In this document: piece after piece, positions 276 through 38,281 of the stretch
Position numbering within the stretch: position 1 is the first letter of the stretch
How the letters are laid out: each line of letters begins with the position of its first letter
Assembly (NCBI GenBank): GCA_903970515.1
Contig: CAJCJA010000047.1
Coordinates: 1-52,089, forward strand
Source of the DNA: Candidatus Saccharibacteria bacterium CG_4_10_14_0_2_um_filter_52_9
GTDB lineage: Bacteria; Actinomycetota; Acidimicrobiia; Acidimicrobiales; RAAP-2
Direction: 5' to 3'
Length of the DNA: 52,089 nucleotides
Position numbers and translations under genes: made by a program
The notes under the pieces: model-generated
The model's input: only the letters and a program-made list of their open reading frames with translations
Databases searched by the model: none
Told to the model about the DNA's origin: nothing

Positions 276-322
276 ACAGGAAGTCGTAGTTAAACCACGG
301 AGGGACTGAAACCATCTCGATT

Positions 323-481
323 ATGCCCACGTCATTTTCGTCAGATCCAACACCACAGAAAACACCACCGACGAGAACCACTGGGAACTACCAAACCGAC
401 AGGAACGGACAAGTTTCCTTGCAGACAAATGACTACAACGACCAAACCGACACATCAAAACAGCTGGCAATCTACTCTTAA
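323..481 (+). other. Possible remnant ORF (52 codons), Thr/Gln-rich
   Basis: An open frame runs through the AC-rich stretch between the IS end and the tRNA fragment. It is open back to 290, has an ATG at 323 and stops at the TAA at 479-481, which is formed by the anticodon-loop sequence of the tRNA fragment. The predicted peptide is hydrophilic and rich in Thr, Asn and Gln, with no recognised domain. The 12-nt sequence ACCAAACCGACA occurs twice (390-401, 441-452). It could be the 3' end of a gene of the integrated element broken by the IS, or non-coding DNA. Confidence 0.25.
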
Positions 482-519
482 TCAACAGGTTCCGGGTTCA
501 AGTCCGGGCCGGCGCACCA
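475..519 (+). pseudogene. 3' part of tRNA-Lys(CUU), probable attachment site
   Basis: The 45 nt match canonical tRNA positions 32-76 without gap: anticodon loop CTCTTAA (475-481, anticodon CTT), T loop TTCAAGT (497-503), acceptor 3' strand CCGGCGC (509-515), discriminator A and encoded CCA (517-519). The sequence upstream does not pair with the acceptor or anticodon stem, so there is no 5' half. T-stem position 51:63 is a G-G mismatch. Such a fragment is what a tRNA-integrating element leaves at its distal att site; the intact tRNA-Lys would lie left of the window on the plus strand. Confidence 0.8.
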
Positions 520-556
520 TTCACGTGCAAGTCAATTCTTGTTCCCGGAGGGCACA

Positions 557-1219
557 GTGAAGTTTCTCCTCACCTCTGGAGGCCTCACCAACGCAAGCAT
601 TCTGGACGAACTGGTGAAGCTAATTGGCAAGCCGATTGCGCAGTCTTCTGCCCTCTGCATTCCGACCGCGCAGTGGGGCAATCCTCAATGCGGTCCGGAG
701 TCAACACGTGGCTTCGTCTGCGGACTTCCTCCTTGGGGAAGCATGACCTCACTGGAGTGGAAGTCGTTGGGTCTTCTTGAACTTTCGGCGTTGCCCACCA
801 TAGGAGAGTCGCGTTGGCTGCCATGGGTTCGCGAAGCGGACGTCTTGCTCGTGGACGGCGGCGACGCGACGTACTTGTGCCACTGGATGCGACAGTCGGG
901 TTTGGCGGACCTACTGCCTTCGTTGCCCGACACGGTCTGGGTCGGGGTGAGTGCCGGCAGCATGGTGATGACGCCTCGAATTGGTGTCGACTTCGTGCAG
1001 TGGTCATCCGCGAAGGACGACACGATGCTTGGGCTCGTCAACTTCTCGATCTTCCCCCATCTTGATGTTTTCCCGACTAACACACTCGCCGAGGCGCAAC
1101 GTTGGGCCACGGAGATCGACGGACCGGCGTACGCCATGGACGACCAGACCGCGATCTCGGTCGTCGACGGCGTCGTCAAGGTCGTCTCCGAGGGACAGTG
1201 GGTCCAACTTCGTTCCTGA
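557..1219 (+). CDS. Peptidase S51 family protein (dipeptidase E-like)
   Basis: The 220-residue product begins VKFLLTSGGL and carries the nucleophile-elbow segment GVSAGSMV expected for the catalytic Ser of the S51 family (PepE and cyanophycinase-like peptidases). The preceding LLVDGGDATYL segment also fits the family fold. S51 enzymes are cytoplasmic serine peptidases; PepE cleaves Asp-X dipeptides, but the substrate here cannot be read from sequence. A GGAGGG at 547-552 just before the GTG at 557 decides the start, against a TTG at 539. It is the first backbone gene after the tRNA fragment. Confidence 0.82.
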   Translation: MKFLLTSGGLTNASILDELVKLIGKPIAQSSALCIPTAQWGNPQCGPESTRGFVCGLPPWGSMTSLEWKSLGLLELSALPTIGESRWLPWVREADVLLVDGGDATYLCHWMRQSGLADLLPSLPDTVWVGVSAGSMVMTPRIGVDFVQWSSAKDDTMLGLVNFSIFPHLDVFPTNTLAEAQRWATEIDGPAYAMDDQTAISVVDGVVKVVSEGQWVQLRS

Positions 1220-1319
1220 GCCATTTGCTCACGGCGATTGTTGAGTCAACGAGCGCGAGCTACGTCTCTTCGTGAGTGTGTTCGCGTCGGTCACGACGAA
1301 GCACTCTTACAATGTCACG

Positions 1320-2171
1320 ATGCCCGAACTGCCCGAAATGCAGGCGCTTTCCGAGCGACTCACTGCGTCTCTCGCTGGTCGCACGTTAGGAGAAGCTCGA
1401 CTCCTTGGATTCTCTTCGCTCAAGACCGTGTCACCCGAGGGCGCAGATCTGATTGGTCACACGCTGCTCTCGGTAACGCGCCGAGCGAAGTACCTCATCT
1501 TCACGTTCGACCACGGTCTACGGATCGTACTTCATCTCTCCCAGGCGGGGAGAATCGATATAGAAGAGCCGCCAAAGTCAACGAGACCTCGGGGAGCGGT
1601 TGCTCGCTTCACCTTTGACGGTGACCCGTGGAGTCGTGCCATCCTCATCCGTGAGTTCGGCACGCAACGCAAGGCGGCGTGGTGGATCCTCGATGCCAAT
1701 GATGAAGGGCCGCTTAAAGGACTGGGGCCCGAGCCGCACACGCCCGAATTCTCCCACCTCATCCGCACCAGCACGAGCAAGCGGCGCCTGCACTCCGACT
1801 TGCGCGACCAGCACGTCATGGCGGGTATCGGACGCGGATGGGGCGACGATATCTTGCACCGCGCTCAACTTTCCCCGTTCGCCACGCTGGGCTCGCTCAG
1901 CGCCATCGAGCGAGAACGACTGATTGATGCGGTCGATCAAGTCCTCGACCAAGCGCTCGCCGCGGAGCGTACGCGCACCGGCGGGCTCTCCGAGTCAAGT
2001 CTCAGCGGGCGCTGCGCGGTGCACGGCCGATTCGGTCAACCCTGTCCCCTGCCCTGCGGCGACACGTTGGCTCGAGTCTCCTTCGAGTCCTATGAGATGA
2101 CCTACTGCCCGCGTTGTCAGACGAAGGGGAAGGTCCTCGCCGATCGTCGAATGTCTCGTCTCCTTAAGTAG
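1320..2171 (+). CDS. Fpg/Nei-family DNA glycosylase
   Basis: The 283-residue protein starts MPELPEMQ, which places the catalytic N-terminal Pro and Glu of Fpg/Nei enzymes directly after Met; this fixes the start at 1320. A Lys in TRRAKYLIF corresponds to the conserved beta-elimination Lys. The helix-two-turn-helix segment (GRGWGDDILHRAQLSP) and a C-terminal zinc finger with four Cys (C-x-H, PCPLPC, YCPRCQTKGK) follow. It removes oxidised bases and nicks the AP site in base-excision repair. TACAAT at 1308-1313 ends 6 nt before the ATG and no Shine-Dalgarno is present, which suggests a leaderless mRNA. Fpg versus Nei specificity cannot be decided. Confidence 0.92.
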   Translation: MPELPEMQALSERLTASLAGRTLGEARLLGFSSLKTVSPEGADLIGHTLLSVTRRAKYLIFTFDHGLRIVLHLSQAGRIDIEEPPKSTRPRGAVARFTFDGDPWSRAILIREFGTQRKAAWWILDANDEGPLKGLGPEPHTPEFSHLIRTSTSKRRLHSDLRDQHVMAGIGRGWGDDILHRAQLSPFATLGSLSAIERERLIDAVDQVLDQALAAERTRTGGLSESSLSGRCAVHGRFGQPCPLPCGDTLARVSFESYEMTYCPRCQTKGKVLADRRMSRLLK

Positions 2172-2280
2172 CGAGCGGGCGATCGCACGTTCAACGCGAG
2201 CTGCCGGGTAGTGGTCGGCACATTGAACCAAACATTGCGTCAGTGCAAACAACGAGAGCGATGCGTCGGAATCATCGGCA

Positions 2281-3039
2281 TCACCCGTGAGTCGAGATGT
2301 CGATGAGTGGATCGAGCGAAGGTCGAAGCGCCCGCAATACTCGCACCAGTTCCGTCTCGGAAATGCTTACGCAACCGTGAGTCGGAGCGTTGACTGACAC
2401 GTGCAGAAAAATCGCCGAGCCGCGATTCGCGACCACCGGCGCCGCGTTATAGGAAATGACCGCGAAGTAGTCGTAGGCCGGCGCCTCCGTCCATAGCGGC
2501 TCCGACGCACCCCCAAACGAAGGCTTCGTGCCGCAGTCGACGTGGACGAAATGGTTGTAGTTGACGGTGCCCGATTGTTCATCCCACCAGTCGCCGCATA
2601 CCAATCGGTGGTAGTGGTACGACAAGCCCGGGTCAGCCAATGTGCCGTACATGGTCACCCCAAAGCCAAAGCGCCCCATCGGCGTCGTGCCGTCACCCTC
2701 GTGCTTGTGCGCCGAGAGACCGTGGTAACCAACCCACGCGCTGTAGGGTCCCAACACCAATCGAAAGCATCCGATTTCGCGCTCGAACAATTCCAACGTG
2801 GCGCGCTGGGACGAGGAAGAGGGTGCGGTAACTGTAACGAGCTCATTTGACGACGTCGCGCCCGCCACCTCGTCCGCGAGCGAACTGCACTTCGCAACAT
2901 GATCCATCGCAACAACTCGATGTCGTGTCGCAGTGAACGCGACGCTCGCCGAACCCGTCGACGTGCCGATCAACACCGAAGCGGCGACGATTAGCCGCCC
3001 GTGGCGGAGAAGTGCTGATAGTCCGGTGACGCGCTCCAT
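2281..3039 (-). CDS. Exported L,D-transpeptidase (YkuD family)
   Basis: The 252-residue product has an N-terminal hydrophobic segment (about residues 16-37), then a YkuD-type catalytic motif: His213 and HGCVS at 221-225 with Cys223 as the expected nucleophile. Family members form or remodel 3-3 peptidoglycan cross-links or attach proteins to the wall, outside the membrane. The ATG at 3039 has a GGGGAGG just upstream and gives a normal signal/anchor, so longer in-frame starts were rejected. It begins inside the 3' end of the upstream M15 peptidase gene (49-nt overlap), so the two are probably co-expressed. Confidence 0.85.
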   Translation of the reverse strand: MERVTGLSALLRHGRLIVAASVLIGTSTGSASVAFTATRHRVVAMDHVAKCSSLADEVAGATSSNELVTVTAPSSSSQRATLELFEREIGCFRLVLGPYSAWVGYHGLSAHKHEGDGTTPMGRFGFGVTMYGTLADPGLSYHYHRLVCGDWWDEQSGTVNYNHFVHVDCGTKPSFGGASEPLWTEAPAYDYFAVISYNAAPVVANRGSAIFLHVSVNAPTHGCVSISETELVRVLRALRPSLDPLIDISTHG

Positions 3040-3707
3040 CGTCCTCCCCAAAACCAGCCTACGGAAGCGAAGGCGTTGTTGAGGATCCCTCCGAGTTCTG
3101 CCATGCCCGGTCGCACGTCGGTGCGGCTCATATACGAAGCCCCCGCAGCGGGTTGGGCGACGCCATCGAAGACGTACGGGTTCTGTACCGGGTTGACGTC
3201 GATGGCCTCGCCGTATGCGTGCACCGACCATTGGGGCGGCCCGTTTGCTACGGCGCGCCGACAGTTAAAGCTCGAGGTATTGTCGGCCGCCATCGAAAGC
3301 GGGTCGTGCCCACCGAATTGCGACTCGGGCGCCATCGAGTGAATTGGGAACCGGTGATCGTAAAGCGTTCGAAAAATCTTCACCACTGCGCCTACGACCT
3401 TCGAAGCAACGACCATCGTGCCCACCCGCGACTCGCCCTGAAAGTTGACATAGTCCATGGTCAACAGTCGAAGTTGGTTCGGACCAACCGGACAGCCCGG
3501 TCGCCACGTCGCGCCCAACTGCGCGGCATCGACGGTACTAACGCGGAACGAAAAAAGCGTGAGCGACGTCGCTCCGGCGATTTCACCTCTCGCCGAGGTG
3601 CCGGTGATGAACGTCGCTGCAGCGACCATCAGTCCCGAAGAGACGATGACGCGCCACTTGCGCTCCTTGCGTACCTGATGTTGAACGCCCGCTCCCCTCA
3701 GACCCAT
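2991..3707 (-). CDS. Exported M15-family D-Ala-D-Ala carboxypeptidase-like protein
   Basis: The 238-residue protein has a basic N terminus and hydrophobic stretch (about 20-37) as a signal or anchor. The Zn-binding pattern of VanY/M15 peptidases is visible: SVHAYGEAID at 161-170 gives His163 and Asp170, and DYQHF gives His232. Such enzymes trim D-Ala or cleave cross-links in peptidoglycan. A longer frame upstream of the ATG at 3707 would give an Arg/Ser-rich N terminus with no export signal, so it was not used. The gene overlaps the following L,D-transpeptidase, forming a two-gene cell-wall unit. Confidence 0.83.
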   Translation of the reverse strand: MGLRGAGVQHQVRKERKWRVIVSSGLMVAAATFITGTSARGEIAGATSLTLFSFRVSTVDAAQLGATWRPGCPVGPNQLRLLTMDYVNFQGESRVGTMVVASKVVGAVVKIFRTLYDHRFPIHSMAPESQFGGHDPLSMAADNTSSFNCRRAVANGPPQWSVHAYGEAIDVNPVQNPYVFDGVAQPAAGASYMSRTDVRPGMAELGGILNNAFASVGWFWGGRWSASPDYQHFSATGG

Positions 3708-3804
3708 GGTCGAATCGTAACTAGTGAGGGAACCGACTCTCGAGTCGCCGAGCATTCCAAAACGTCGCGCCTGCCCACAATTCACGCCACGACGAACGAT
3801 CGAG

Positions 3805-4578
3805 TCAAGCCGGCGGACCAAGGACGTGCCCACCGTCGACGTGGATGACGTTGCCCGTCGCCCACGACGCTTGCGCCGATGCAACGAAGCAAATCCACTC
3901 CGCGACTTCGTGGGCGGTGCCCATTCGACCGAGAGGGACTCGACGCGAAAGGTCCTCGTACGTCGCCGCGAGATCGTCACTATAGGTTTCGTGAATCGGT
4001 GTGTCAATCACGCCAGGGGCAATGCAGTTGACGCGAATGGAGTCCGGTGCCAATTCATGCGCCCACGCTTTGGTCAGGTAATCGAGTGCCGCCTTCGTCG
4101 ATCCGTAGAGCATGGTCGACGGCATGAGGATTGAGCCGAGTGACGAACTCACGTTCACAATCGAAGCGTCGGGTGATTGACGCAGGTGCTCGAGCGATGC
4201 TCTTGCCAACAGCAGTGGGGCTCGAACGTTCAGCGCGTAATGTTCATCAACGATCTCGCTCGTGATCTCATTGAGACGCCCCGGCTGAATCATTGCCGCG
4301 TTGTTGACGAGAACGTCGAGACGACCAAAGGAATCAATGGTTGTCGTGACCACCTCCTCGCACGATGATGCCTGCGCGAGGTCAGCGACGACACTGAGCG
4401 CCGTCCCGCCGTTCGACCGTATTTCGTCACCCACTCGGTCAAGGTTTTGCTTGCGTCGCCCCACGAGGACAACTCGGTGTTCCCGCCGTGCGAAGAGTCG
4501 AGCGGTGGCCGCGCCGATGCCGCTTCCCGCTCCCGTCACGATTACGACACGTTGTGAATCATCAGTTTCGGTGGCCAC
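3805..4578 (-). CDS. SDR-family NAD(P)-dependent oxidoreductase
   Basis: This 257-residue classical short-chain dehydrogenase shows the cofactor motif TGAGSGIG (15-22), NNAA (92-95), catalytic Ser145 and the Tyr158-x3-Lys162 pair. It is a cytoplasmic oxidoreductase of unknown substrate. It lies 46 nt downstream of the tetR gene on the same strand and is probably the third gene of the alpha/beta hydrolase-tetR-SDR operon, so the substrate may be related to that of the hydrolase. The ATG at 4578 is the natural start. Confidence 0.88.
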   Translation of the reverse strand: MATETDDSQRVVIVTGAGSGIGAATARLFARREHRVVLVGRRKQNLDRVGDEIRSNGGTALSVVADLAQASSCEEVVTTTIDSFGRLDVLVNNAAMIQPGRLNEITSEIVDEHYALNVRAPLLLARASLEHLRQSPDASIVNVSSSLGSILMPSTMLYGSTKAALDYLTKAWAHELAPDSIRVNCIAPGVIDTPIHETYSDDLAATYEDLSRRVPLGRMGTAHEVAEWICFVASAQASWATGNVIHVDGGHVLGPPA

Positions 4579-4624
4579 CTCAGAAATTTAATCTCAAAGT
4601 TGCACCAAATTCATCGAGGTGTCT

Positions 4625-5194
4625 TCACTGGCGCGGCCAACTCTCGAGGGCAACGATGACTCCTCGAATCAGCCGGTCGTAACTTCGATTGACGTCAACG
4701 TTGAGTTGAAACCCTCCGCTACTTTCGAGCGTCACGAAACCGTGCAACGAAGAGCGAAGTACTCGAATGGCGTCAATCGCGTCGTCGCCCTCGAGCTTGT
4801 AGGCGCCGAGCACGTCAGCGATGATTTGCACAACCGCGAGTGACGCAGCTTCGTCATCACTGTCACCCGGTGATGGCGCGACCTGGGCGGACACGTAGCG
4901 ACCCGGGTGGCGCAGGGCCCACTGTCGATACGCGTGTGACATGGCGATGATCGCGTCGTTCCCCGATCGTCCGACCGCCGCACGCGCCAGCACGTCGCCG
5001 AGTTCGACTTTCGCTCGCACCGAGATGCTTCGTTGCAAACTCGCCATCGAATCAATGTGCTTGTACAGCGATGGTTGACGCACGCCAAGTCGTTCCGCGA
5101 GGGCCGCAAGGGTGAACTCGCGAAGTCCCACTTCGTCGGCCATTTGCTCGGCTTCGTGGACCACGCGATCTTGTGTGAGTCCTGCTCTAGGCAT
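4625..5194 (-). CDS. TetR-family transcriptional regulator
   Basis: The 189-residue protein begins MPRAGLTQDRVV and has a TetR-type HTH (about residues 17-50: FTLAALAERLGVRQPSLYKH). The C-terminal part (ALRHPGRYV ... GFVTLESSGGFQ) resembles the WHG-type ligand domain of TetR proteins. The gene overlaps the end of the alpha/beta hydrolase gene by 8 nt, so both come from the promoter at 6028-6056. A 19-bp palindrome that covers the -10 of that promoter (6023-6041) is a natural candidate operator for this repressor, which would make the operon autoregulated. The ligand is unknown. Confidence 0.9.
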   Translation of the reverse strand: MPRAGLTQDRVVHEAEQMADEVGLREFTLAALAERLGVRQPSLYKHIDSMASLQRSISVRAKVELGDVLARAAVGRSGNDAIIAMSHAYRQWALRHPGRYVSAQVAPSPGDSDDEAASLAVVQIIADVLGAYKLEGDDAIDAIRVLRSSLHGFVTLESSGGFQLNVDVNRSYDRLIRGVIVALESWPRQ

Positions 5195-6020
5195 CGAGAT
5201 CCAACGTCGTGATGAAGCGCAACACGGCGTCCGCAACAATCTTTGGCTGTTGGGACTGCGGGTAGTGACCCGCGTCGGGCACCACGAGAACCTCGCCACG
5301 AACGGCGCCGCCGATCCAGCGCGCTTCGGCGGCGGGGTCTGGGAAATCAATGTCGAGCGCGCCCATGATGACCAACGTTGGTACCCTCACCCGGGCGATC
5401 TGCGCGGCGGCTAATGAATGGTCGGTCCTCGTCGTCAACGAGAACGCCTTCGCGTAGCCGGGACGACGCAGGTTCCTCACAATTGTGTCTCGGTACTCGT
5501 CGAAGTCACTTGGTCGCTGGCCCGAATAAAGTTTTGGCAGATAGGACTTCCACATCGCGGTCGCCCAACGCCGGTGCATGATCACACGAAACAGAGCCCG
5601 CTTGATTGCTCCGTTGGCCCCATTGCGCACCCACGGCCCCACGAGCACGAGTGCGCGAACGAGTTCGGGATGGTCGGTCGCAACCAACACCGCCGCTCCC
5701 GCACCCATGGAATTTCCAATGACGACCGCCGGCCCACCGAGTTCTCCGATCAGAGCCCTCACGTCATCAGCCGTCGGCGCGTCGCCGTAGGTATTGAAGG
5801 TCGTGTCGCTCTCGCCGTGTCCTCGAAGGTCCGTGCTCGCGACGCGATAACCCGCAGCGACCAGCGCCGGCGTGAGGAAGCGATAGGAACTTCGAAGGTC
5901 GCCCATGCCCGGGACGAGGACCAACAAAGGGCCCTCCCCCGTGATGTCGTAGCTGATGCGACCCTCAGGGCGCTGGAGAAATCTGGAAGAAGAAGTTTGA
6001 ACTATTGGATCCTGGGTCAT
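5187..6020 (-). CDS. Alpha/beta hydrolase
   Basis: The 277-residue product has the oxyanion-hole region LVPGMGD, the nucleophile elbow GNSMG (102-106, Ser104), an acid in the GALDIDFPDP segment and the catalytic His in DAGHYPQ. It is a cytoplasmic hydrolase of the large esterase/haloalkane dehalogenase-like superfamily; the reaction cannot be assigned. It is the promoter-proximal gene of an operon with tetR and an SDR. The ATG at 6020 follows the -10 by 7 nt, so the mRNA is probably leaderless; the in-frame extension upstream crosses the promoter and is not credible. Confidence 0.88.
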   Translation of the reverse strand: MTQDPIVQTSSSRFLQRPEGRISYDITGEGPLLVLVPGMGDLRSSYRFLTPALVAAGYRVASTDLRGHGESDTTFNTYGDAPTADDVRALIGELGGPAVVIGNSMGAGAAVLVATDHPELVRALVLVGPWVRNGANGAIKRALFRVIMHRRWATAMWKSYLPKLYSGQRPSDFDEYRDTIVRNLRRPGYAKAFSLTTRTDHSLAAAQIARVRVPTLVIMGALDIDFPDPAAEARWIGGAVRGEVLVVPDAGHYPQSQQPKIVADAVLRFITTLDLDA

Positions 6021-6022
6021 GT

Positions 6023-6041
6023 AGGCTATTATATATAGCCT
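6023..6041. promoter_or_regulatory. Palindromic operator, probably for the TetR regulator
   Basis: AGGCTAT-tatat-ATAGCCT is a 7-bp perfect inverted repeat around a 5-nt AT centre (19 bp in all). It overlaps the -10 element of the hydrolase-tetR-SDR promoter and abuts the start codon, a position where a bound repressor would block transcription. Spacing and size are typical of TetR operators; the link to this TetR is inferred from position. Confidence 0.7.
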
Positions 6042-6056
6042 TTTAGGGAATGTCAA
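6028..6056 (-). promoter_or_regulatory. Consensus sigma70-type promoter for the hydrolase-tetR-SDR operon
   Basis: On the minus strand TTGACA (6056-6051) and TATAAT (6033-6028) are separated by exactly 17 nt: both hexamers and spacing match the ideal consensus, which is unusual in this GC-rich sequence. The expected transcription start is at or next to the A of the ATG at 6020, predicting a leaderless transcript. Confidence 0.85.
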
Positions 6057-6141
6057 TAGTTTTGGAAATTGTCCGTGAGCGTCGATGGCGGTTGGGACTT
6101 CATCGCGGCTCGACCAAGTGACACTGATTGAATGGTGAACG

Positions 6142-6822
6142 ATGGAGCCCCTCGACAACATCATGTGGCACGCGTTGAGTGGGCCGCAATTGCGCTTCGC
6201 GCAAGGCGATGATCGAGCGCGGTGCTATCCGAGCGACGTTGCGGCGTTCAGCGCCGTTCCCGACGAACCTCGACCGGAGCATTTTGCCGCACTGCGCGAC
6301 CTCGTCGGGCCAGATGGCGTCGCCGTATTGTTTCGCGACAACGTGGAGGCGCCCGACGATTGGGACGTGCTCGACATGTTCGACGGCGTGCAGATGGTCG
6401 CTCCGACGTCGATGGCCTCCACATCACTCGATCCACGAGTCGTGACGCTCGGGGCCCTTGACGTAGAGGACATGATGTCCTTGACCTCGCGCACGAACCC
6501 CGGACCATTCGCCCGCAGAACCTTCGAGCTCGGTACGTACCTCGGCATTCGCCACGAAGGCCATCTCATTGCAATGGCGGGACAGCGGGCACGTACGAAC
6601 GAACACATCGAAATCAGTGCCGTTTGCACCGACGCCGCCTTCGTAGGGCAAGGACTCGGCCGCGCGCTCGTCATCGCACAGGTCGCAACGATTATCGCCG
6701 AGGAAAAAATACCTATGCTTCATGCGTCGGCGCAGAATCTCCGTGCCATCGCCCTGTACGACTTCCTCGGTTTCCAGTTACGTCGCACGGTCAAGGGCAT
6801 CATCATGCGCTCACCTCATTGA
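6142..6822 (+). CDS. GNAT-family N-acetyltransferase (FR47-like)
   Basis: The 226-residue protein has an N-terminal domain of unknown role and a C-terminal GNAT fold. The acetyl-CoA binding signature is seen around EISAVCTDAAFVGQGLGRAL, with Q/G-x-G-x-G/A spacing, followed by HASAQNLRAIALYDFLGF, the usual beta4-alpha4 and Tyr region. This resembles FR47-type acetyltransferases. It is divergent from the hydrolase operon, with about 85 nt between its start and the -35 of that promoter. The substrate is unknown. Confidence 0.82.
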   Translation: MEPLDNIMWHALSGPQLRFAQGDDRARCYPSDVAAFSAVPDEPRPEHFAALRDLVGPDGVAVLFRDNVEAPDDWDVLDMFDGVQMVAPTSMASTSLDPRVVTLGALDVEDMMSLTSRTNPGPFARRTFELGTYLGIRHEGHLIAMAGQRARTNEHIEISAVCTDAAFVGQGLGRALVIAQVATIIAEEKIPMLHASAQNLRAIALYDFLGFQLRRTVKGIIMRSPH

Positions 6823-7044
6823 AGGTTCCGTGACGTCGGCGCCGCAACGCAACGAGTTTCGCGCGCGAGGGTCACGGCTTGATCACTGCGGTCCTCGCTG
6901 AGAATGCGCACACCATATTCCTACTGCCTTGTTGGATAATTCTCGACGGGTCTGATAGACAACAGAAGAGGCGTCGAACACTCGGCTCCTCGAAAGGTTT
7001 TCGCGTGGCCGCGAGGTTCGTGGTCCTAAGCAAAGGGGAGAGTC
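6823..7044. other. Intergenic region without recognised gene
   Basis: No coding frame with family resemblance, RNA gene or strong hairpin was seen. The last part holds the GGGGAG (7035-7040) ribosome-binding site of the next gene, so the promoter of that gene is probably within this stretch, but I could not place its -35 and -10 with confidence. Confidence 0.5.
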
Positions 7045-7473
7045 TTGTCCATTCGAAACAGCACGAAGCGAACGATGCTGAAGGTGTTCCTCGGTTCGGC
7101 CGTCGTCATCGGAACGCTGGTCGTGCCGCTCGGCATAGGAGTCGAGGGCAGTGGCGCCGCGAGTGCATTCTGCTCAACACTGAGGACGTGGGAAACCAAC
7201 CCGCCAAAGGCTCCGCCCTCGGGATTCACCACCGCTGCATACCACGCCTGGGCCAAGAGTTACCTACCGCTCTATGAGAAGTTGGCTTCTGAAGCACCCA
7301 ACGCCAAGACCAAAACCATCCTCAACGACGTCGTCACCATCTTGAAGGACTACGCGAGCGCGTCGAGCATTCAGAAGCTCGAGGCGGACGCCGCCGCGAA
7401 TGCCAAGGGCTACGAACAAGACGCGCAGGCACTCGCGCAAGCCGTTATTTCCTGCGCGGGTTCGCTGGGCTAA
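7045..7473 (+). CDS. Small secreted protein of unknown function
   Basis: The 142-residue product has a clear signal peptide (basic MSIRNSTKRTMLK, hydrophobic core to about residue 34, Ala-rich cleavage region GAASA near 40). The mature part is helical and Ala/Lys-rich, with two Cys (CSTL and ISCAG), one near each end, that could form a disulfide. I do not recognise a family. The TTG at 7045 follows a GGGGAG; an ATG at 7075 would give a shorter signal peptide and is the alternative. It is followed by a very strong hairpin at 7480-7525. Confidence 0.7.
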   Translation: MSIRNSTKRTMLKVFLGSAVVIGTLVVPLGIGVEGSGAASAFCSTLRTWETNPPKAPPSGFTTAAYHAWAKSYLPLYEKLASEAPNAKTKTILNDVVTILKDYASASSIQKLEADAAANAKGYEQDAQALAQAVISCAGSLG

Positions 7474-7479
7474 TCGCTG

Positions 7480-7525
7480 CACCGACTCCCATCACCTCGA
7501 TCACTCGAGGTGATGGGAGTCGGTG
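7480..7525. terminator. 21-bp perfect hairpin, probable terminator
   Basis: The arms 7480-7500 and 7505-7525 are perfectly complementary over 21 bp around the tetraloop TCAC. It lies 7 nt after the stop of the secreted-protein gene and before the next co-directional gene. No T-tract follows, so if it terminates it is of the U-poor type described in actinobacteria; it could also stabilise the 3' end of the mRNA. Confidence 0.75.
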
Positions 7526-7586
7526 ATGATTCAAACTCCGGTCAGTAGACCGCGATATCCGCCGCGCACGCGTTAGCGTGCTCGGC

Positions 7587-8075
7587 GTGGAGATCCGTTT
7601 CGCCAGGCCTACTGACGTCGAGGCGATTGACGCCTTAATTCGAGAACTCGCCGAGTACGAACGTCTCAGCCACCAGGTCATCGCGAACCAGCAGCAACTC
7701 CGTGACGCCCTGTTCTCCGCGACACCCCACGTCTATTGCCACGTGGTGGAGGAAGAACACACAATCGTCGGCTTTGCGCTGTGGTTTCTCACGTTTTCCA
7801 CATTCGAGGGTGCGACTGGTCTCTACCTCGAGGACCTCTACGTTCGAGAGTCGCATCGACGTCAAGGCATTGGCGCCTCATTGTTGCAAAGGCTCGCGGC
7901 ATTGTGCGTCGAGCGGGGTTATACGCGTCTGCAGTGGTGGGTGCTCGATTGGAACGAACCGTCGATTGAGTTTTACCGTTCGTTTGGCGCGGTGCCCATG
8001 GATGAGTGGACGGTCTATCGCGTGAGTGGCGAAGCCCTGAGGAAACTTAGTAGCGCTACTGCCTCCGATCATTAG
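7587..8075 (+). CDS. GNAT acetyltransferase, diamine (SSAT)-like
   Basis: The 162-residue protein carries the run LYLEDLYVRESHRRQGIG, the acetyl-CoA site, followed by LQWWVLDWNEPSIEFYRSFGA, and ends with DEWTVYRVSGEAL. This arrangement is characteristic of spermidine/diamine N-acetyltransferase-like (SSAT) proteins, although bacterial members may acetylate other amines such as thialysine. TAGCGT at 7574-7579 ends 7 nt before the GTG at 7587, which favours this start (leaderless) over the GTG at 7578, which lies inside the hexamer. Substrate is inferred. Confidence 0.83.
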   Translation: MEIRFARPTDVEAIDALIRELAEYERLSHQVIANQQQLRDALFSATPHVYCHVVEEEHTIVGFALWFLTFSTFEGATGLYLEDLYVRESHRRQGIGASLLQRLAALCVERGYTRLQWWVLDWNEPSIEFYRSFGAVPMDEWTVYRVSGEALRKLSSATASDH

Positions 8076-8081
8076 GCACCC

Positions 8082-8516
8082 TCAGATGCATTCGGCGAGC
8101 GCGAAGAGAAACTGTTGGAGCGTGCGAATAAAATCGAGGAGCACGGGCTCGCAGGCTGCCAGCTTCTCCTCGTTCAACAATCCGTGGGACGTGGCCGTTG
8201 AACGCAGCGCAATCTGCAGAGTGCTGAGCCACGCCCACGCCTCGCCCTCGTTCAAGAATTGTTCGCCGAGCGTCATGTAGGCGAGCTCCGCGTTTGTCGA
8301 AATTTCATTCTGGCGATTGAGCGTCGAGAGGGGGTCGTCCGAATCGACACTCGGATCAATGGGTGGATTGAGACCTTCGCGCCACTCGTGCTGCGGGTCT
8401 CGCTCGGCGGCGACCACTCGCCCGAAGGCCTCGCGCGCGACTTCTCGCCCCGCATCATTAAGGCGCACTTCGATGCGCCCATCGCGACGACGAACGAAGA
8501 GTCGATTGCCAACCAC
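8082..8516 (-). CDS. DUF2017 family protein
   Basis: The 144-residue acidic protein resembles the actinobacterial DUF2017 family: the pattern ISTNAELAYMTLGEQFLNEGE and the final LDFIRTLQQFLFAL helix are the recognisable parts. Function is unknown, but family genes very commonly sit directly after clpS, as here: the GTG start shares its G with the clpS stop (TAGTG), implying translational coupling. A role linked to Clp proteolysis is an inference from that context. It is shorter than many family members. Confidence 0.75.
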   Translation of the reverse strand: MVGNRLFVRRRDGRIEVRLNDAGREVAREAFGRVVAAERDPQHEWREGLNPPIDPSVDSDDPLSTLNRQNEISTNAELAYMTLGEQFLNEGEAWAWLSTLQIALRSTATSHGLLNEEKLAACEPVLLDFIRTLQQFLFALAECI

Positions 8517-8821
8517 TATTCGTCCTTCTCGATCGTCGCCTGGAGTCCAGCGACTTGAAGTTTCACGCAGTAGGACGTGGCCCGATCATTCGCTCCCGAC
8601 CATACGATCGCTCGACCTTCGTGATGAACTTGCAACATCAGTTGTGTGCACTTGTTATTCGAATACCCGAAGATCCGCCGAAATATCACAACCACGACGG
8701 ACATGGGTGTCACCGGATCGTCCCACACGACGACGTTCCAGGGCCGCTCCGTCATGACGACGCTGGTCGTCTCTTGCTTCGTCTCCGTCGACGACAGAAC
8801 GTTGCGGACCAGAGTTCTCAC
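8516..8821 (-). CDS. clpS: Clp protease adaptor ClpS
   Basis: The 101-residue product has a flexible, Thr-rich N terminus and the ClpS core: WNVVVWDDPVTPMSVVVV, FGYS, QVHHEGRAIV and the terminal AGLQATIEKD. ClpS binds N-degron substrates and delivers them to ClpA/ClpC-ClpP. The Asp-Asp of WDDP and the His of QVHH correspond to residues lining the N-degron pocket in characterised ClpS. GTG at 8821 gives the usual disordered N-terminal extension. It is divergent from the MpaB-type gene. Confidence 0.9.
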   Translation of the reverse strand: MRTLVRNVLSSTETKQETTSVVMTERPWNVVVWDDPVTPMSVVVVIFRRIFGYSNNKCTQLMLQVHHEGRAIVWSGANDRATSYCVKLQVAGLQATIEKDE

Positions 8822-8893
8822 TTGCCCAGTGTCCCAGACGACCGCGCCGAAAGAAAGTCACGAGCCATAAGATGCGCGAGAGGAAAGGTGGCC

Positions 8894-9772
8894 ATGAGCA
8901 TCGCGAGTTGGAAGGAAGTGCCAACGCGCCTACGCTCACGCACGAACACCCAGATTCGACGCAGCGTCGGACTCACACAAGAGCCCCCTCCCCGATGCTC
9001 GGATCCAGAGCATTCGTATTTTCCCGTCAACGGCGCGTCACGCCTCGTGCACGCCGACCTTTCGTCCATGTTGGCCGGTGGCATCGCCTCTTTGTTCTTT
9101 CAGATGCTGCACCCCCACGCGATGGCTGGCGTGGCTGATCATTCTCGCTACCAACAAGATCCGCTCGGTCGGCTGTTGCAAACCGCCAATTTCATTGGTG
9201 CGACGACCTTCGGTTCGAAGGAAACGGCGTACGCCTCGATTGAACGAGTACGAGCGGTGCACGTGGCGGTGCGAGGCATCGCGGACGACGGAAAGCCCTA
9301 CGACGCGAATGACCCACATCTGCTCGCCTGGGTCCACGTCGCCGAAACCTCGATGTTCCTCGCCGGATATCAGCGATACGGTAAGCGACGAATCTCCAGA
9401 AGCGACGCCGACGAGTACGTACGCGAGATGGCGGGGCTCGCGTGCGACCTCGGCGCGGAAAACCCACCGACGAACCTCGACGAATTGCGAGTCGCCATCG
9501 ATCGTTTTCGCCCGGAACTGCGCCTCAGTCCCGACGGCATCGCGGCGCGCGACTTCTTGATGGATGGTTTCGTCAAAGGCGTGTTGCCGCGCATGGCGTA
9601 CCGACTGTTCATGCTTGGAGCACTCGACTTATTGGAACCGTGGGCCCGTCAACTGCTCGGCGTCAAGGAATCGTCATGGCCGAGACGTCTTTGGGTTCGA
9701 GGGGCGACGCACGTCCTGAGTGGACTGGTTCGATTCTTCGTCCCACCGCCCGATCGCGTCACAACGCCGTAG
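8894..9772 (+). CDS. MpaB-type (DUF2236) oxygenase family protein
   Basis: The 292-residue protein belongs to the DUF2236 family, which includes fungal MpaB and latex-clearing-type haem proteins. Family landmarks are HPHAMAGVADHSRYQQDPLGR and HLLAWVHVAETSMFLAGYQRYG, which carry conserved His and Arg residues, and a helical C terminus. Most bacterial members have no known substrate; an oxidative reaction on a lipid-like molecule is conceivable. The ATG at 8894 follows AGGAAAGG (8881-8888). Its 3' end overlaps the convergent SDR gene by 14 nt. Confidence 0.82.
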   Translation: MSIASWKEVPTRLRSRTNTQIRRSVGLTQEPPPRCSDPEHSYFPVNGASRLVHADLSSMLAGGIASLFFQMLHPHAMAGVADHSRYQQDPLGRLLQTANFIGATTFGSKETAYASIERVRAVHVAVRGIADDGKPYDANDPHLLAWVHVAETSMFLAGYQRYGKRRISRSDADEYVREMAGLACDLGAENPPTNLDELRVAIDRFRPELRLSPDGIAARDFLMDGFVKGVLPRMAYRLFMLGALDLLEPWARQLLGVKESSWPRRLWVRGATHVLSGLVRFFVPPPDRVTTP

Positions 9773-10481
9773 AGAGACCTCCGTCAACGACCACAACTTG
9801 TCCAGTGACGTACGGCGTCGCCGCGAGCGCCACGATGACGTCGGCAACGTCCTCGGGGGTGCCACTGCGGTGAAGCGGTGCGACGGCCGAGACGAATTTT
9901 CGCTCCAGTTCCCAATCGGCCGTCCACGGTGTATCGATGAGACCGGGCGCGACCGCGTTCACTCGCACCTCGGGTCCCACGGCCTTCGCGAGCAACGCCG
10001 TCAGGTGGTTGAGTGCGGCCTTCGATGAGGCGTAGGGAATGGACGAACCCGTGGGACGAACGCCGGCGACTGAGGACACGTTGACGATCACGCCATTTGT
10101 TTTTCGAAGTTCCTCCATCGCCGCCACGCACATCGACCACGTGCCAAAGACGTTGACTTCGAAGATTTGACGCCACACGTCTACCGTCGCCGCCGCCAAG
10201 TCCGAGTGAGCAATCTTCTTGGTCGCGCCCGCGTTATTGATTAAGACGTCAAGACGTCCGTAGCGAGCGACGACTTCGAGAACCAAACGGGCGCAGTCGT
10301 CTTCTTTGGTGATGTCCGCTTGGACGTAGTGCGAACCGGGCGTGACCTCGGCCAGGCGCTCACCTTCACGCACACTGTGGGCCGAGTTGAAGACGACGGT
10401 GTCGCCGAGGGCGGCAAAGCGCAGCGCCGTTGCTTCGCCAATCCCACTCGTCGAACCAGTGACGAGGACGACCCTCGCCAT
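9759..10481 (-). CDS. SDR-family oxidoreductase
   Basis: This 240-residue short-chain dehydrogenase has TGSTSGIG (8-15), NNAG (82-85), the Ser of VNVSSVAG (about 136), and Tyr150-x3-Lys154. The C terminus (VTGQVVVVDGG) is typical of FabG-like members. Substrate is unknown. Its ATG shares one base with the TAA of the aldose-epimerase-like gene upstream (TAATG), so the two are translationally coupled and may act on related sugar or polyol substrates. Confidence 0.87.
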   Translation of the reverse strand: MARVVLVTGSTSGIGEATALRFAALGDTVVFNSAHSVREGERLAEVTPGSHYVQADITKEDDCARLVLEVVARYGRLDVLINNAGATKKIAHSDLAAATVDVWRQIFEVNVFGTWSMCVAAMEELRKTNGVIVNVSSVAGVRPTGSSIPYASSKAALNHLTALLAKAVGPEVRVNAVAPGLIDTPWTADWELERKFVSAVAPLHRSGTPEDVADVIVALAATPYVTGQVVVVDGGLSTAL

Positions 10482-11392
10482 TAGGCGCGACGCCGCAAGC
10501 GCCACGATCCAGCCCAGTGCTGACCGGGTTCGAGTACCACGATGTCTTTGCCACTTCGAAGGGCGTCGGGTGGGCACGTCATCGGCTCAACCGCGATCGC
10601 CGTGCGACGTCGCCCTTTCTCCAACGTGTCGCCGGTGAAGACCTGGAGGTAGGGGAACGTGCGATCGACGCTCAACTCCACTTCCCCACCCGCGCTGTCG
10701 GTAACCACCACGCTGGTCATGCCACTGTCGTCACGAACCAACTCGGTATAGGTGACGTCGAGTTCGTGACCGTTCACGGATTTTTGTCGAGAGAAGTCCA
10801 ACTGGTGCCCGGCCAGCGGCAAGATCTCGCCCGTGGGTAGCTTGCGCGCGTTCGTCGCGACGTAGGCCTTCGCGGGTACTTCGAGTTGCGCGCCCTCGAT
10901 GGTCGGTGTTGTCACTGAAAGGTACGGGTGAAACCCAACGCCGAAGGGGATCGGTACGTCATCGCGATTAAGGACGGTGGTCGTTACGGTGAGACCGAGC
11001 GATCCGAGGTGATAGGCAACGCTTATTTCCGACAAGAAGGGATAATCGGGAGTTGGATGCAGCAACATCGACAACACGCAACGGTTTTGGTTCACCGAAT
11101 CGATTCGAAATGGACGCCAACGGATGAGACCGTGAATGGCCGTGGCGTGTTCGACGTCATCAACGGTCGGGTGTGCCACGCGATCCGAAAACGTCCATTC
11201 ACCGTCACCCGTGCGATTCGGCCAGGGGAACAGGACTTGGCCCCGGGCTCCCGTGGGCACTTCCTCACCGGCGAAGCCTTCGATCACGCTCAACCCACCT
11301 TTCACGTAGGTTCGAAGGGTCGCACCCACTTCGGTAATGACCGCGCGCTGGTCGCCGTGGGCTATCGCAATCTGTTCTCCTGACGGAAGCAT
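10481..11392 (-). CDS. Aldose 1-epimerase family protein
   Basis: The 303-residue protein matches the galactose-mutarotase fold: HGLIRW (first catalytic His), GVGFHPYLSV (second His, acid) and IAVEPMTCPPDAL (catalytic Glu). It interconverts anomers of a hexose or hexose phosphate. An N-terminal segment with LFPWPNRTGDGEW matches the sugar-binding Asn-Arg region. A GGGGAAACG lies upstream of the ATG. It is coupled to the downstream SDR and divergent from surE. Confidence 0.88.
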   Translation of the reverse strand: MLPSGEQIAIAHGDQRAVITEVGATLRTYVKGGLSVIEGFAGEEVPTGARGQVLFPWPNRTGDGEWTFSDRVAHPTVDDVEHATAIHGLIRWRPFRIDSVNQNRCVLSMLLHPTPDYPFLSEISVAYHLGSLGLTVTTTVLNRDDVPIPFGVGFHPYLSVTTPTIEGAQLEVPAKAYVATNARKLPTGEILPLAGHQLDFSRQKSVNGHELDVTYTELVRDDSGMTSVVVTDSAGGEVELSVDRTFPYLQVFTGDTLEKGRRRTAIAVEPMTCPPDALRSGKDIVVLEPGQHWAGSWRLRRRA

Positions 11393-11449
11393 CAGTTCGT
11401 TTCCCCGCTTTTCACCTCAACGTAACTTAGGGCAGTTAGGGTGAGACAG

Positions 11450-12298
11450 ATGCGAATTTTGATTACTAACGACGACGGTATCGATGCACCTGGAATCGCG
11501 ATACTCACGCGAGCGGTGCAGAAGTGGATTGAACGGTGCCCACCGGGCCAACTTCGCGAGGCGATGGTCGTCGCCCCGCACCAGAACTATTCGGGCATGT
11601 CCTCAGCCGTTGGCGACGTGTTCGCTCACCCCGCCGTCAAATACAAGCGCTTTACGATCCTCGGCGCCGAATCCATCCCCGCCTACTCCCTCGAAGCGCC
11701 ACCGGCCCTCTGCGTCATCGTGGGCGCCGTGGGAAGTTTTGAGTTCGAACCCGACCTCGTACTTTCGGGCATCAACGCGGGCGCCAACGTAGGGCGAAGT
11801 CTCCTGCATTCGGGGACCGTCGGGGCGATTCTCACCGGTGCGCAATTGGGGCTCTCGGGTCTCGCGGTGTCGGTGCAATGGGGCGAAGACGTGCATTTCG
11901 ACACCGCCGCCGACCTCGCGATGGAAGTGCTTGAAGAACTCATGGATGCGCCCCAGCGCACGTTGATGAACCTCAATGTGCCCAACCTCAGTGCGCATCA
12001 ACTCAAGGGCGTGAAGAGGGGACGTGTGTCCACGGCGGGCATCGTCAAAGCGGCGGGACCACGCGCCGGGGGCGAGCCCCTCGGCGAAGAAGGCGAACTT
12101 CCCCTGCGGGTCGGTGCGGCGAGTCCCGAGTTAGGCGACGTCAGTGACGAGGACGCGGACGAAGACGGCGCTCTGCTCTCAGCCGGTTACGCATCGCTCA
12201 CGCCGCTGCGCGGACCCCACGAAGACACCGATCCCTCAAGGGACGCGCTCATGCACGCCGCCCTTCGTGCGATCGATCGTCATCTCTCGCAGTTCTAA
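11450..12298 (+). CDS. surE: 5'/3'-nucleotidase SurE
   Basis: The 282-residue product starts MRILITNDDGIDAPGI with the metal-binding Asp8-Asp9 pair and continues with APHQNYSGMSSA and LSGINAGANVGRSLLHSGTVGA, all SurE signatures. SurE dephosphorylates nucleoside monophosphates in the cytoplasm. An acidic stretch (DVSDEDADEDGA) interrupts the C-terminal region. TAGGGT at 11437-11442 ends 7 nt before the ATG at 11450, favouring a leaderless start over the GTG at 11441, which overlaps the hexamer. The 3' end overlaps the convergent arfB by 4 nt. Confidence 0.92.
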   Translation: MRILITNDDGIDAPGIAILTRAVQKWIERCPPGQLREAMVVAPHQNYSGMSSAVGDVFAHPAVKYKRFTILGAESIPAYSLEAPPALCVIVGAVGSFEFEPDLVLSGINAGANVGRSLLHSGTVGAILTGAQLGLSGLAVSVQWGEDVHFDTAADLAMEVLEELMDAPQRTLMNLNVPNLSAHQLKGVKRGRVSTAGIVKAAGPRAGGEPLGEEGELPLRVGAASPELGDVSDEDADEDGALLSAGYASLTPLRGPHEDTDPSRDALMHAALRAIDRHLSQF

Positions 12299-12729
12299 TC
12301 GTCGGTTGGCCGACGCCGGTTCTCCTTCACCCGACCCCGCGCCTTCTTGTCCTCGATGCGGCGCACCTTCGAGGCCTTGGTTGGTTTACTCGCCCGGCGA
12401 GGATTGGGGGGCGTCAGCGCGGCGCCGATCTTGTTCGCCAACTGTTCCAGCGCGGCCGAGCGGTTCTGGCCCTGGGAGCGAAATCGCCCAGAGCTCGAAC
12501 GCACGACACTACCCATGTTCTCGAGCAGCAGCGCTCGGTCAGCGTCGTTTAACACCTCGGAGCGCGTCACGTGGAACGATGCGATGACTCGCGTCAACGA
12601 ACGATTGGCGTGTTGACCCCCCGGTCCGCCCGAAGTCGTGAACCGGATATCAATCTCCTCGCCAGGGATGACGAGTCTCGGGCGAATTTGCAACGCGCCC
12701 GTTTCCAAGACGCGCGGCACAAAGGTCAT
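12295..12729 (-). CDS. arfB: Alternative ribosome-rescue factor ArfB (YaeJ-type peptidyl-tRNA hydrolase)
   Basis: The 144-residue protein has the catalytic GGPGGQ motif (34-39) of class-I release-factor-like hydrolases. It lacks the codon-recognition domains and ends in a basic, disordered tail (KPTKASKVRRIEDKKARGR) that in E. coli ArfB enters the empty mRNA channel. It releases stalled nascent chains from non-stop ribosomes. Its ATG overlaps the stop of the upstream thioesterase gene (ATGA, 4 nt). Confidence 0.93.
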   Translation of the reverse strand: MTFVPRVLETGALQIRPRLVIPGEEIDIRFTTSGGPGGQHANRSLTRVIASFHVTRSEVLNDADRALLLENMGSVVRSSSGRFRSQGQNRSAALEQLANKIGAALTPPNPRRASKPTKASKVRRIEDKKARGRVKENRRRPTDD

Positions 12730-13559
12730 TTCTCCGGTGCGGGGAATCGCACCATCGCGAGTTGCGACGACGACCCAACGAGTTGACCACGCTCGTCGAA
12801 CATCTCACAGCGCTCGTCAACGAGTCCGTCAGCGATTACCACGCCCCACTGACGAGCTCGTAACCATTCGCCTTGTGGAATTCTTCGAGCGTAACTCGTC
12901 AGTTGCAGCGTCGGCACCCAACCTGATGATCCGATGGGGAACGTCGCGGGTGGGAACGCGTCACTCGCGAACAGGATGCTCCAGGGGTCCCAACGCATCC
13001 CGTCGTCGCCGAGGCGGATCCAACCTAGTAACTCGGCCCGATCGGCGACCTCGCCAAACCACCAGCCCACGCTCCTGGGGTCGAGACGCAGATCGACGGC
13101 GTTGAAAGTCTTGACGTCGTCGGTTCCCGGTACACGATGACACTCCTCAAGAGGCGCGACGTCGGGTATCTGCGCATCCTGGTAACGAAGCACGGAATCC
13201 TCCTTGAGGGTGCCCAACGTCACCAGCGACTCAGTCGTGACGACACCGCCCTGCATCATGGTGACGTGCACGAAGGAGGCCCCTCGACCAACGCGACGAA
13301 CATCGGTGAAGATCTCCGCTGGCGCCGGTTCGGGAGAGCCCACATAGTTCGTGGTGATCGACGTCGTATGCAGATGAGGTGCACCCTGCGCCGAAGCGGC
13401 GGCGAGGGCCGCGCTCGAGAGGACGCATTGCAAGTAACCGCCGTTCGGATGACCCATCACCGAATAGAGCGATGAGATGTCGACTCCAAAACGGTCAGCG
13501 GCGAGTGGTTCGACGGCGGCGGCGTCTCGAAGAGTGACGTTGAGGGAGTTGTTCGACAC
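12726..13559 (-). CDS. Acyl-CoA thioesterase (TesB-like, double hot-dog)
   Basis: The 277-residue protein resembles two fused hot-dog domains of the TesB-like acyl-CoA thioesterase family: N-terminal HPNGGYLQCVLSSAALAAAS with GRGASFVHVTMMQGG, and a C-terminal half with PTLQLTSYARRIPQGEWL. It would hydrolyse acyl-CoAs in the cytoplasm; chain length is unknown. TAGTGT (13571-13566) lies 6 nt before the GTG start, so a leaderless transcript is likely. It is coupled to arfB and divergent from mmsA. Confidence 0.83.
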   Translation of the reverse strand: MSNNSLNVTLRDAAAVEPLAADRFGVDISSLYSVMGHPNGGYLQCVLSSAALAAASAQGAPHLHTTSITTNYVGSPEPAPAEIFTDVRRVGRGASFVHVTMMQGGVVTTESLVTLGTLKEDSVLRYQDAQIPDVAPLEECHRVPGTDDVKTFNAVDLRLDPRSVGWWFGEVADRAELLGWIRLGDDGMRWDPWSILFASDAFPPATFPIGSSGWVPTLQLTSYARRIPQGEWLRARQWGVVIADGLVDERCEMFDERGQLVGSSSQLAMVRFPAPEK

Positions 13560-13622
13560 GCAGCAACACTAACGGTCGCATCAAAAGCGCCTGTAGATTT
13601 GAGACAACGAAGGAGAGCCACT

Positions 13623-16517: not shown

Positions 16518-16929
16518 ACAACACACCACCGTACGCTCCTACGGCGTCTTGATCCACGAGGGTCGCATCGCCCTCGTGCGTTCGTCGAATCCTCAACACG
16601 TGCCGCCCCTCTGGTGGTTACCGGGCGGTGGCATCAGCTTTGGCGAAGCACCCGAAGACACGCTCTATCGAGAATTCAAAGAGGAGACGGGACTCGAGGT
16701 CCGTAACCCCACGCTCTTGGGTGTGACGAGCGACGTGCGGCGCCGTGACAACGGGGATCAAAGCCACACCGTGCGAATTCTCTTTACGGTGGAACTGGCG
16801 GGTGGCGAATTGCAACACGAAGTGCACGGGACGACCGACCACGCCTCGTGGTTCACCCTCGAGGAACTCGACTCGCTCAACGTCGCCGAGTACGCCCGAG
16901 CGGCCATCGATGCGGCTCAAGCGAAGTAA
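16510..16929 (+). CDS. Nudix hydrolase
   Basis: The 139-residue protein contains a complete Nudix box (GGGISFGEAPEDTLYREF followed by KEETGLEV), the metal-binding loop-helix that hydrolyses nucleoside diphosphates linked to another moiety. The start overlaps the YHS permease gene by 8 nt, and the end overlaps the convergent acyl-CoA ligase gene by 13 nt. Substrate cannot be inferred; the TTV-RSYGVLIHEGRIALVR N terminus is typical of MutT/ADP-ribose-type members. Confidence 0.9.
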   Translation: MSKQHTTVRSYGVLIHEGRIALVRSSNPQHVPPLWWLPGGGISFGEAPEDTLYREFKEETGLEVRNPTLLGVTSDVRRRDNGDQSHTVRILFTVELAGGELQHEVHGTTDHASWFTLEELDSLNVAEYARAAIDAAQAK

Positions 16930-18593: not shown

Positions 18594-18699
18594 GAGACCC
18601 CCTTGATGTTCCCAAATCCTAGGCAGAACTTCGACCAGCCACGCTGCATTAGAAATGAGGCGTGCGAGTAGCGGACTTCTCGAGCGACCGTGAGAGACG

Positions 18700-18978: not shown

Positions 18979-19026
18979 CGATCCGTTGTGGGAGAGTGCA
19001 ATGAAGCTTCTCTGAAAGGAAATCTC

Positions 19027-19326: not shown

Positions 19327-19329
19327 TGA

Positions 19330-20256: not shown

Positions 20257-20382
20257 GTTGCCTCATTAGATATCGTGGCTGCGACGCAGCAACCTTTCTT
20301 CAATCGTAACCCTGAGAATTCCCATCGCCTCACCGTCTTTGTGATTCGCTGCACAAGGCGGACGCAGTAACCTTGCCCTCTT

Positions 20383-38208: not shown

Positions 38209-38281
<73 letters not shown>

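Follow-up and report, generated by a model that had tools for sequence, protein, structure and literature searches.

Integron-like arrays of small mobile gene cassettes joined by tRNA 3ʹ halves across one genus, putatively moved by a trans-acting integrase

The DNA analysed here, referred to as the window, is a stretch of 52,089 nt that makes up contig C47 of a 1.97-Mb genome in 56 contigs (G000; G and C labels denote genomes and contigs). The genome belongs to a genus of Acidimicrobiaceae MAGs, all of which are drafts. On the plus strand at 474–519, beginning 473 bp into the contig, lies the 3ʹ half of tRNA-Lys(CUU), from the anticodon loop to a CCA at 517–519. ARAGORN calls an intact tRNA-Lys(CUU) gene on another contig of the same genome (C14:596–669, minus strand), 595 bp from the contig end. 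Window positions 474–517 match this gene over 44 nt with one mismatch, at 506 in the T stem (98% identity; E = 1.8e-15), and, judged by that value within the genome, a chance origin is out of the question. At the half itself ARAGORN calls nothing; the sole tRNA gene in the window is a tRNA-Gly at 38211. Hence, the original prediction of a tRNA-Lys(CUU) 3ʹ fragment without a 5ʹ half is borne out, as is the expected intact gene that shares this 3ʹ part. The DNA after this intact gene reads TG, so the gene encodes no CCA; GCACCA is present in 26 of the 35 intact-gene lines listed. Such a second copy of a tRNA 3ʹ part, away from the intact gene, is what a tRNA-targeted integrative element leaves as its attachment scar. 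Since the intact gene exists and the DNA left of the fragment resembles the unit ends of relatives, the fragment is best read, as first proposed, as a scar of site-specific recombination at tRNA-Lys(CUU), with the half as the putative core of the attachment site.

The unit to the left of the scar is represented by 474 bp only; it is cut by the contig edge and has one visible end. The AC-rich character of this DNA, pointed out in the original prediction, is real and conserved among relatives, where an AC-rich arm precedes the tRNA-Lys halves, and we read positions 320–473 (plus strand) as an attachment-site arm with which the inserted unit ends on the right. A leave-one-out HMM built from 32 other arms, with the cores removed, matches window 337–469 (E = 3e-13; next match, 0.71; decoys matched, 0 of 11). 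By blastn, the arm is 87% identical over 156 nt to DNA of G036:C4 and 77–83% identical to arms in G074, G073 and G077. Within it, on the plus strand, are the direct repeats CAACACCAC (348–356) and AAACACCAC (360–368), which agree at 8 of 9 positions with a 12-nt period and are putative arm-type integrase sites. A second pair on the same strand, ACTACCAAACCGACA (387–401) and ACGACCAAACCGACA (438–452), was recognized by eye and has similar counterparts in several relatives' arms. At 3–110 on the minus strand, inside the inserted unit and cut by the contig edge, is a candidate N-terminal remnant of an IS21-family transposase. The earlier remark on an IS21-type end thus keeps a weak match in its favour (NCBIfam NF033546, model positions 7–42 of 294, E = 3e-4), which is far below the model's cut-off.

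To the right of 519, where ordinary chromosome had been predicted, 7.6 kb of lineage-variable DNA (520–8081, delimited by synteny with relatives) comes first, and conserved chromosome resumes only at 8,082. Hence, the earlier boundary is not the edge of the variable region. The first gene right of the scar encodes a peptidase S51 (557–1219, plus strand; PF03575, E = 9e-16), and the next named feature is an Fpg/Nei-type DNA glycosylase gene (1320–2171, plus strand; PF01149, PF06831). The remaining content comprises a YkuD-like gene (below cut-off) and genes for an M15 peptidase, an SDR, a TetR, an alpha/beta hydrolase and two GNATs. The GNAT gene at 7578–8075 adjoins the conserved block and has homologues in the equivalent interval of G061, G074 and G080. 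A homologue of the glycosylase (62–64% identical) forms a one-gene unit (U15) between two tRNA-Lys halves in G073:C14. The 7.6 kb could be either old inserted DNA or native to an ancestor. Peptidase S51 was considered as a native neighbour of tRNA-Lys and rejected: tRNA-Lys is absent from the flanks of its gene (up to 1.5 kb a side) in 12 other genomes. In G016:C9 (L039) the peptidase S51 gene starts ~40 bp past an intact tRNA-Val(CAC); the window copy likewise starts right after a tRNA half. The conserved block (8082–21651, by synteny) is the one that follows tRNA-Lys(CUU) in relatives. It begins with a gene that has no Pfam or NCBIfam family, followed by the gene for ClpS (PF02617), and farther along includes one for SurE (NCBIfam models, below their cut-offs).

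Relatives share a common layout at this locus: tRNA-Lys(CUU), then a variable interval, then the conserved block. An aldehyde dehydrogenase gene (PF00171) upstream of tRNA-Lys on C14 has 34 matches in the relatives' loci, the twelve listed being 87–92% identical. Two relatives have an empty site, with only 29 bp (G071) and 36 bp (G022) between tRNA-Lys and the downstream gene. Relatives that lack the insertion, which the original prediction anticipated, are thus at hand, and such an empty site accords with an attachment scar; the flank that it identifies is 8082, not 520. The interval measures 0.9 to 11 kb in 14 genomes (G081, G061, G021, G030, G025, G024, G065, G066, G076, G001, G070, G033, G080 and G031), and a search for a tRNA-Lys half within it found none. 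In G072, G023 and G074 the interval is 15 to 39 kb long and contains one or two halves. Two further observations concern DNA next to intact tRNA-Lys genes. In G027:C29 (L078), the gene is followed by three consecutive copies of CACCAAAGTAG, as though successive insertions had left them. The DNA after the gene in G000 (C14:1–595) and in G073 (C14, from 1,830) is similar by eye over ~100 bp, and may be broken insertion-sequence DNA.

Extra tRNA-Lys 3ʹ halves (query positions ~31 to 74) occur in at least 23 of 61 genus genomes, and at least 15 have two or more. Up to four lie on one stretch, and wherever a stretch includes the intact gene as well (G073, G074, G023, G072) the halves are on its strand. 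Named records with a Lys half (24 stretches) are MAGs that bear the label Acidimicrobiaceae or Actinomycetes, and many come from palsa, bog and fen samples. We also searched 148 genomes of the order with tRNA-Lys, with up to six candidates scored in each. Among the matches listed, those outside the genus are single half-like matches in G052, G137, G053 and G235, with no arrays, which is a weak absence.

Arrays at tRNA-Met(CAU) are larger. In G063:C35 the intact gene at 48,430 is followed by 16 halves over 41 kb, and in G092:C23 by 13 halves over 18.7 kb; halves in these arrays were called with up to 9 mismatches in 42 nt. Further Met runs of at least three halves occur in G090, G034, G073, G017, G029, G086 and G028, and a tRNA-Met half is present in at least 28 of 99 genomes, with up to nine candidates scored per genome. 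Two Lys halves sit inside the Met array region of G063:C35, on the opposite strand. The genome of the window is among the 28: its tRNA-Met half, with an arm, is at C48:23,996 (L243), 1.45 kb from the contig end, and its intact tRNA-Met (C40:386) is also near an end. The gene on the contig-end side of this half shares 83% identity with the leading gene of a G063 cassette that encodes an HTH and a Fic-like protein (79% for G017); on the opposite side, genes share 72% and 71% identity with those of G090 units.

The original prediction described a single ordinary island, in which one element had inserted at tRNA-Lys(CUU), leaving the fragment as attR with plain chromosome on its right. The single Lys half in G000, the intact gene near a contig end and the conserved arm fit that description. 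However, it is too simple because relatives carry tandem halves on one strand, and neither the variable 7.6 kb that follows the scar on its right nor the tRNA-Met half beside cassette-type genes on C48 agrees with it. We therefore consider it quite unlikely. In our preferred reading, the half is probably the right-hand attachment scar of a unit that a tyrosine integrase inserted at tRNA-Lys(CUU), as one step in the growth of a cassette array.

The arms that precede the halves have a recurrent internal structure. A perfect 9-nt direct repeat, always with a 12-nt period, is present in 23 of 45 Lys arms; in the others the best such repeat agrees at 8 of 9 positions (10 arms), at 7 (10 arms) or at 6 (two arms). 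In shuffled arms a perfect repeat appears in 0.4% and an 8/9 repeat in 6.8%; scores of 7 and 6 are frequent there. The repeats fall into different families, including AATCCCACA, ACATCCCTC, AGGCCTCAT, AACACCACA and TGTCAACAC, and the window arm falls in the AACACCACA class, its repeat agreeing at 8 of 9 positions. Many Met arms have ATCCCACGT or ATCCCACAT at a period of 12; others have different repeats or none that is clear. We infer that an integrase binds at the 12-nt-period repeats.

We delimited 100 units between successive sites (71 at Met, 26 at Lys-CUU, two at Ala-GGC and one at Lys-UUU). They come from stretches chosen for holding halves, and their counts therefore give no genus-wide frequency. 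With one 31-bp unit set aside, the median length is 1,743 bp, and 68 of 99 units are shorter than 2.5 kb (20 are shorter than 1 kb). Among the 68, one confident gene was found in 37, two in 17, none in 12 and more than two in two; the gene finder was home-made and misses genes, such as the SDR gene of unit U32. Contents tested against Pfam include YefM/YoeB, a nucleotidyltransferase with a weak HEPN partner, glyoxalase, SnoaL-like and LanC-like proteins, alpha/beta hydrolase and SDR. An integrase was found in three of the 100 units, namely both Ala-GGC units and the Lys-UUU unit, and none in the other 97, in searches for tyrosine recombinases with five query proteins and, on called genes, with our own HMM. 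These figures set the units apart from tycheposons, which are described as large cargo elements (4–200 kb) beside a tRNA with their own tyrosine recombinase. At tRNA-Ala(GGC) in G063:C35:1–13,416, two units lie in tandem, each with an integrase; they may be an autonomous counterpart to the small cassettes.

There are 21 pairs of homologous units. One pair lies within G090, and the other 20 link different genomes; these form 10 groups, so that neither the pairs nor the neighbour comparisons are independent. In several cases the lengths of shared cassettes are nearly equal (1155, 1155, 1153 and 1137 bp; 2310 and 2310 bp; 1228 and 1228 bp; 692 and 693 bp), and neighbours are conserved in none of 27 testable comparisons. 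In 16 of the 20 pairs the cassettes, compared over their aligned parts only, are more alike than the trigger-factor genes (tig) of the same genomes, for example 99.8% against 79.0%. The other four, with cassette identity below that of tig, are three YefM–YoeB pairs and M41/M64 (82.4% against 95.9%). In the 99.8% pair (M36/M42), identity continues past the cassette through 150 nt or more of the preceding arm. The shared stretch may thus comprise more than one cassette, or come from a misbinned contig.

More generally, misbinned or misjoined contigs in draft MAGs could mimic sharing, and an artefact of assembly or binning, with contigs joined at the 44-nt repeats or assigned to the wrong genome, has to be weighed. 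In its favour, intact genes and halves of G000 lie close to contig ends. Against it, the same cassettes recur with the same ends in different genomes, the large arrays are internal to G063:C35 (96 kb) and G092:C23 (119 kb), and single halves also occur in records from other sequencing projects. We regard such an artefact as highly improbable.

The limits of the shared DNA differ between the two sides of a cassette. On the right, homology ends at the core, with 60% identity in the next 150 bp against a background of 59%. On the left, in the 10 pairs that have a preceding arm in both members, the preceding arms are 74% alike and the cassettes' own arms 76%, the own arm being the more similar in 6 of 10; any two arms are 70% alike as background. 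Since own and preceding arms are about equally alike, there is room for homologous recombination in the arms. An apparent drop in similarity on the left of the core (preceding arm 59% alike, 19 pairs) does not support a breakpoint there: 8 of the 19 pairs had an intact gene on one side, and the difference vanishes without these and one cut-short pair.

In some relatives, integrases lie at the same intact tRNA genes as the arrays. Relatives of the G077 integrase at E ≤ 1e-60 occur in 22 of 99 genus genomes. Those with upstream DNA mostly follow directly after an intact tRNA, which is Lys-CUU (G077, G100, G094), Lys-UUU, one of two CAU kinds, Val, Arg-ACG or Gln; some of the most distant members have a tRNA neighbour (Ser, Arg-CCU) on the opposite strand, and the G068 member is near a Lys half rather than an intact tRNA. 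In three cases the repeats between tRNA and integrase resemble by eye the arm repeats of the same tRNA. These are AGGCCCAT, at the G094 tRNA-Lys integrase and in an arm of G028; ATCCCACGT, at the G094 tRNA-Met integrase and in Met arrays; and ACACCACA, at the G077 tRNA-Lys integrase, in the arm of G077:C27 and in the window class. The G100 repeat, AAACCCAC, is one base off the nearest arm class. The original prediction had suggested looking for a nearby tyrosine recombinase gene. In G000, where the contig edge cuts the unit, no member of this tRNA-Lys-linked family was found at E ≤ 1e-60. The genome has three tyrosine recombinase matches. One of them (C18:108–1256, L052) was examined as the enzyme of the site and rejected, being 99% identical to a G036 integrase that follows tRNA-Ala(GGC). 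Because C18 also starts exactly where tRNA-Ala(GGC) ends, G000 likely has a tRNA-Ala island.

Could the cassettes now be shuffled by homologous recombination between the repeated arms and halves, with no need for a site-specific integrase? The cores are nearly identical and unrelated arms ~70% alike, left-hand breakpoints may lie in the arms, and among the Met-array genomes only G094 has a family integrase beside tRNA-Met (E ≤ 1e-60), all of which such a process would accommodate. It leaves unexplained the 12-nt-period repeats of the arms, which are like those beside the integrases, and we judge it unlikely as the main process.

Under the preferred reading, insertion by an integrase at the tRNA, the following series of events can be proposed. 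A tyrosine integrase would cross over inside the 3ʹ half of the tRNA gene. The copy of the 3ʹ half on the incoming DNA would restore an intact tRNA, and the old 3ʹ half would be pushed away. Since each insertion displaces the old half, repeated insertion would build an array on one strand: intact tRNA, unit, arm and half, unit, arm and half, chromosome. An integrase acting in trans, bound to the 12-nt-period repeats of the arm, may excise and integrate small units. The DNA left of 474 in the window would be such a unit, and C14 and C47 may flank one array in G000. For most arrays no such enzyme was found in the assembled genome; it may come from passing elements, or shuffling may now use homologous recombination. 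Such an outside supply is presumably comparable to that of CALINs, which are integron-type cassette arrays with no integrase nearby. In its fullest form, the arrangement would be a tRNA-based analogue of the integron, whose minimal cassettes carry one or two genes and end in an arm, with 12-nt-period integrase sites, and a tRNA 3ʹ half. In this form, tRNA-specific integrases would move the cassettes in trans, one at a time and between species, and the tRNA would serve as a permanent entry site. We hold this form tentatively, at slightly less than even chances.

To our knowledge, shuffling of small cassettes between species is known mainly from integrons. The arrays described here resemble integrons in being built from small cassettes with a gene or two apiece, toxin–antitoxin pairs included, often without an integrase nearby. 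They differ in the joint, here an arm followed by a tRNA 3ʹ half. Integron cassette genes are mostly in one orientation, whereas the genes in units shorter than 2.5 kb are divided between the minus strand (40) and the plus strand (38).

The window's genus belongs to the same class as the order Actinomarinales. Additive flexible genomic islands with repeats of tRNA parts have been described in Methylophilaceae (PMC10872708), Actinomarinales (PMC7771536) and Alteromonas (PMC4119200); in the sections of these papers that we draw on, they are variable, lie beside a tRNA gene, grow by added cassettes and leave tRNA-part repeats behind. The arrays here likewise form variable islands anchored at a tRNA, with added cassettes and tRNA repeats. 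In the Methylophilaceae the tRNA is also tRNA-Lys(ctt), of which the last 20 nt are concerned (PMC10872708), and the Actinomarinales account reports small cassettes inserted at tRNAs and cassette transfer between genera (PMC7771536). As far as those accounts describe, the arm sequences, the site-paired integrase and the neighbour-change test are particular to the present arrays. Elements with tyrosine recombinases are also known to form arrays, according to the part of PMC6563490 consulted.

CIMEs, as presented in the relevant part of PMC5704250, are integrase-less units that have att sites as their bounds and have accreted in tandem at a single site. The units could have arisen in the same way, as former autonomous elements reduced to att sites and a gene or two that then accreted. 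The process is described there for ICEs and IMEs, and the integrase-bearing tandem units at tRNA-Ala(GGC) in G063 fit it. CIMEs in that account are decayed elements, whereas here the same short cassette keeps a near-constant length and recurs in different species with different neighbours, an outcome that separate decay should not yield. We consider decay and accretion somewhat unlikely as the source of the units. tRNA-scarred additive islands and CIME accretion have already been published. Integrase-less shuffling arrays appear to be a new form of such arrangements; neither a pairing of arms with integrases nor a neighbour test for integrase-less cassettes was found in the open-licence literature searched, in those portions that were consulted. 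If tRNA-targeting integrases do run the cassettes, some of the small-scale gene turnover at tRNA genes of environmental bacteria, as in additive islands, would gain a defined mobile unit, defined DNA sites and a testable enzyme. If so, the signature to search for would be recurring tRNA 3ʹ halves with 12-nt-period direct repeats ahead of them.

Mycobacteriophage L5-type tyrosine integrases target a tRNA and use arm-type sites. The present system is similar in having the core in the tRNA 3ʹ half, and the G077 integrase has catalytic and SAM-like domains with an arm-binding match just below cut-off (20.7 against 22.3 bits). To the integron-integrase models TIGR02249 and NF011946 it has a match over ~47 residues only, below cut-off. 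The system is unlike the L5 type in its distance from phage proteins: all 2,387 matching phage records are less than 60% identical, and the ten listed are at most 29% identical. A known vector was rejected: among the matches listed, the identity of integrase relatives does not exceed 29% for phages and 31% for plasmids. A viral origin of the halves was likewise rejected, the exact Lys and Met half patterns having no matches in viral contigs. Runs of three neighbouring tyrosine recombinase genes also occur in the collection (G028:C14, C15 and C58; G008:C115; G069:C79), and these resemble the arrangement in Tn554-like elements.
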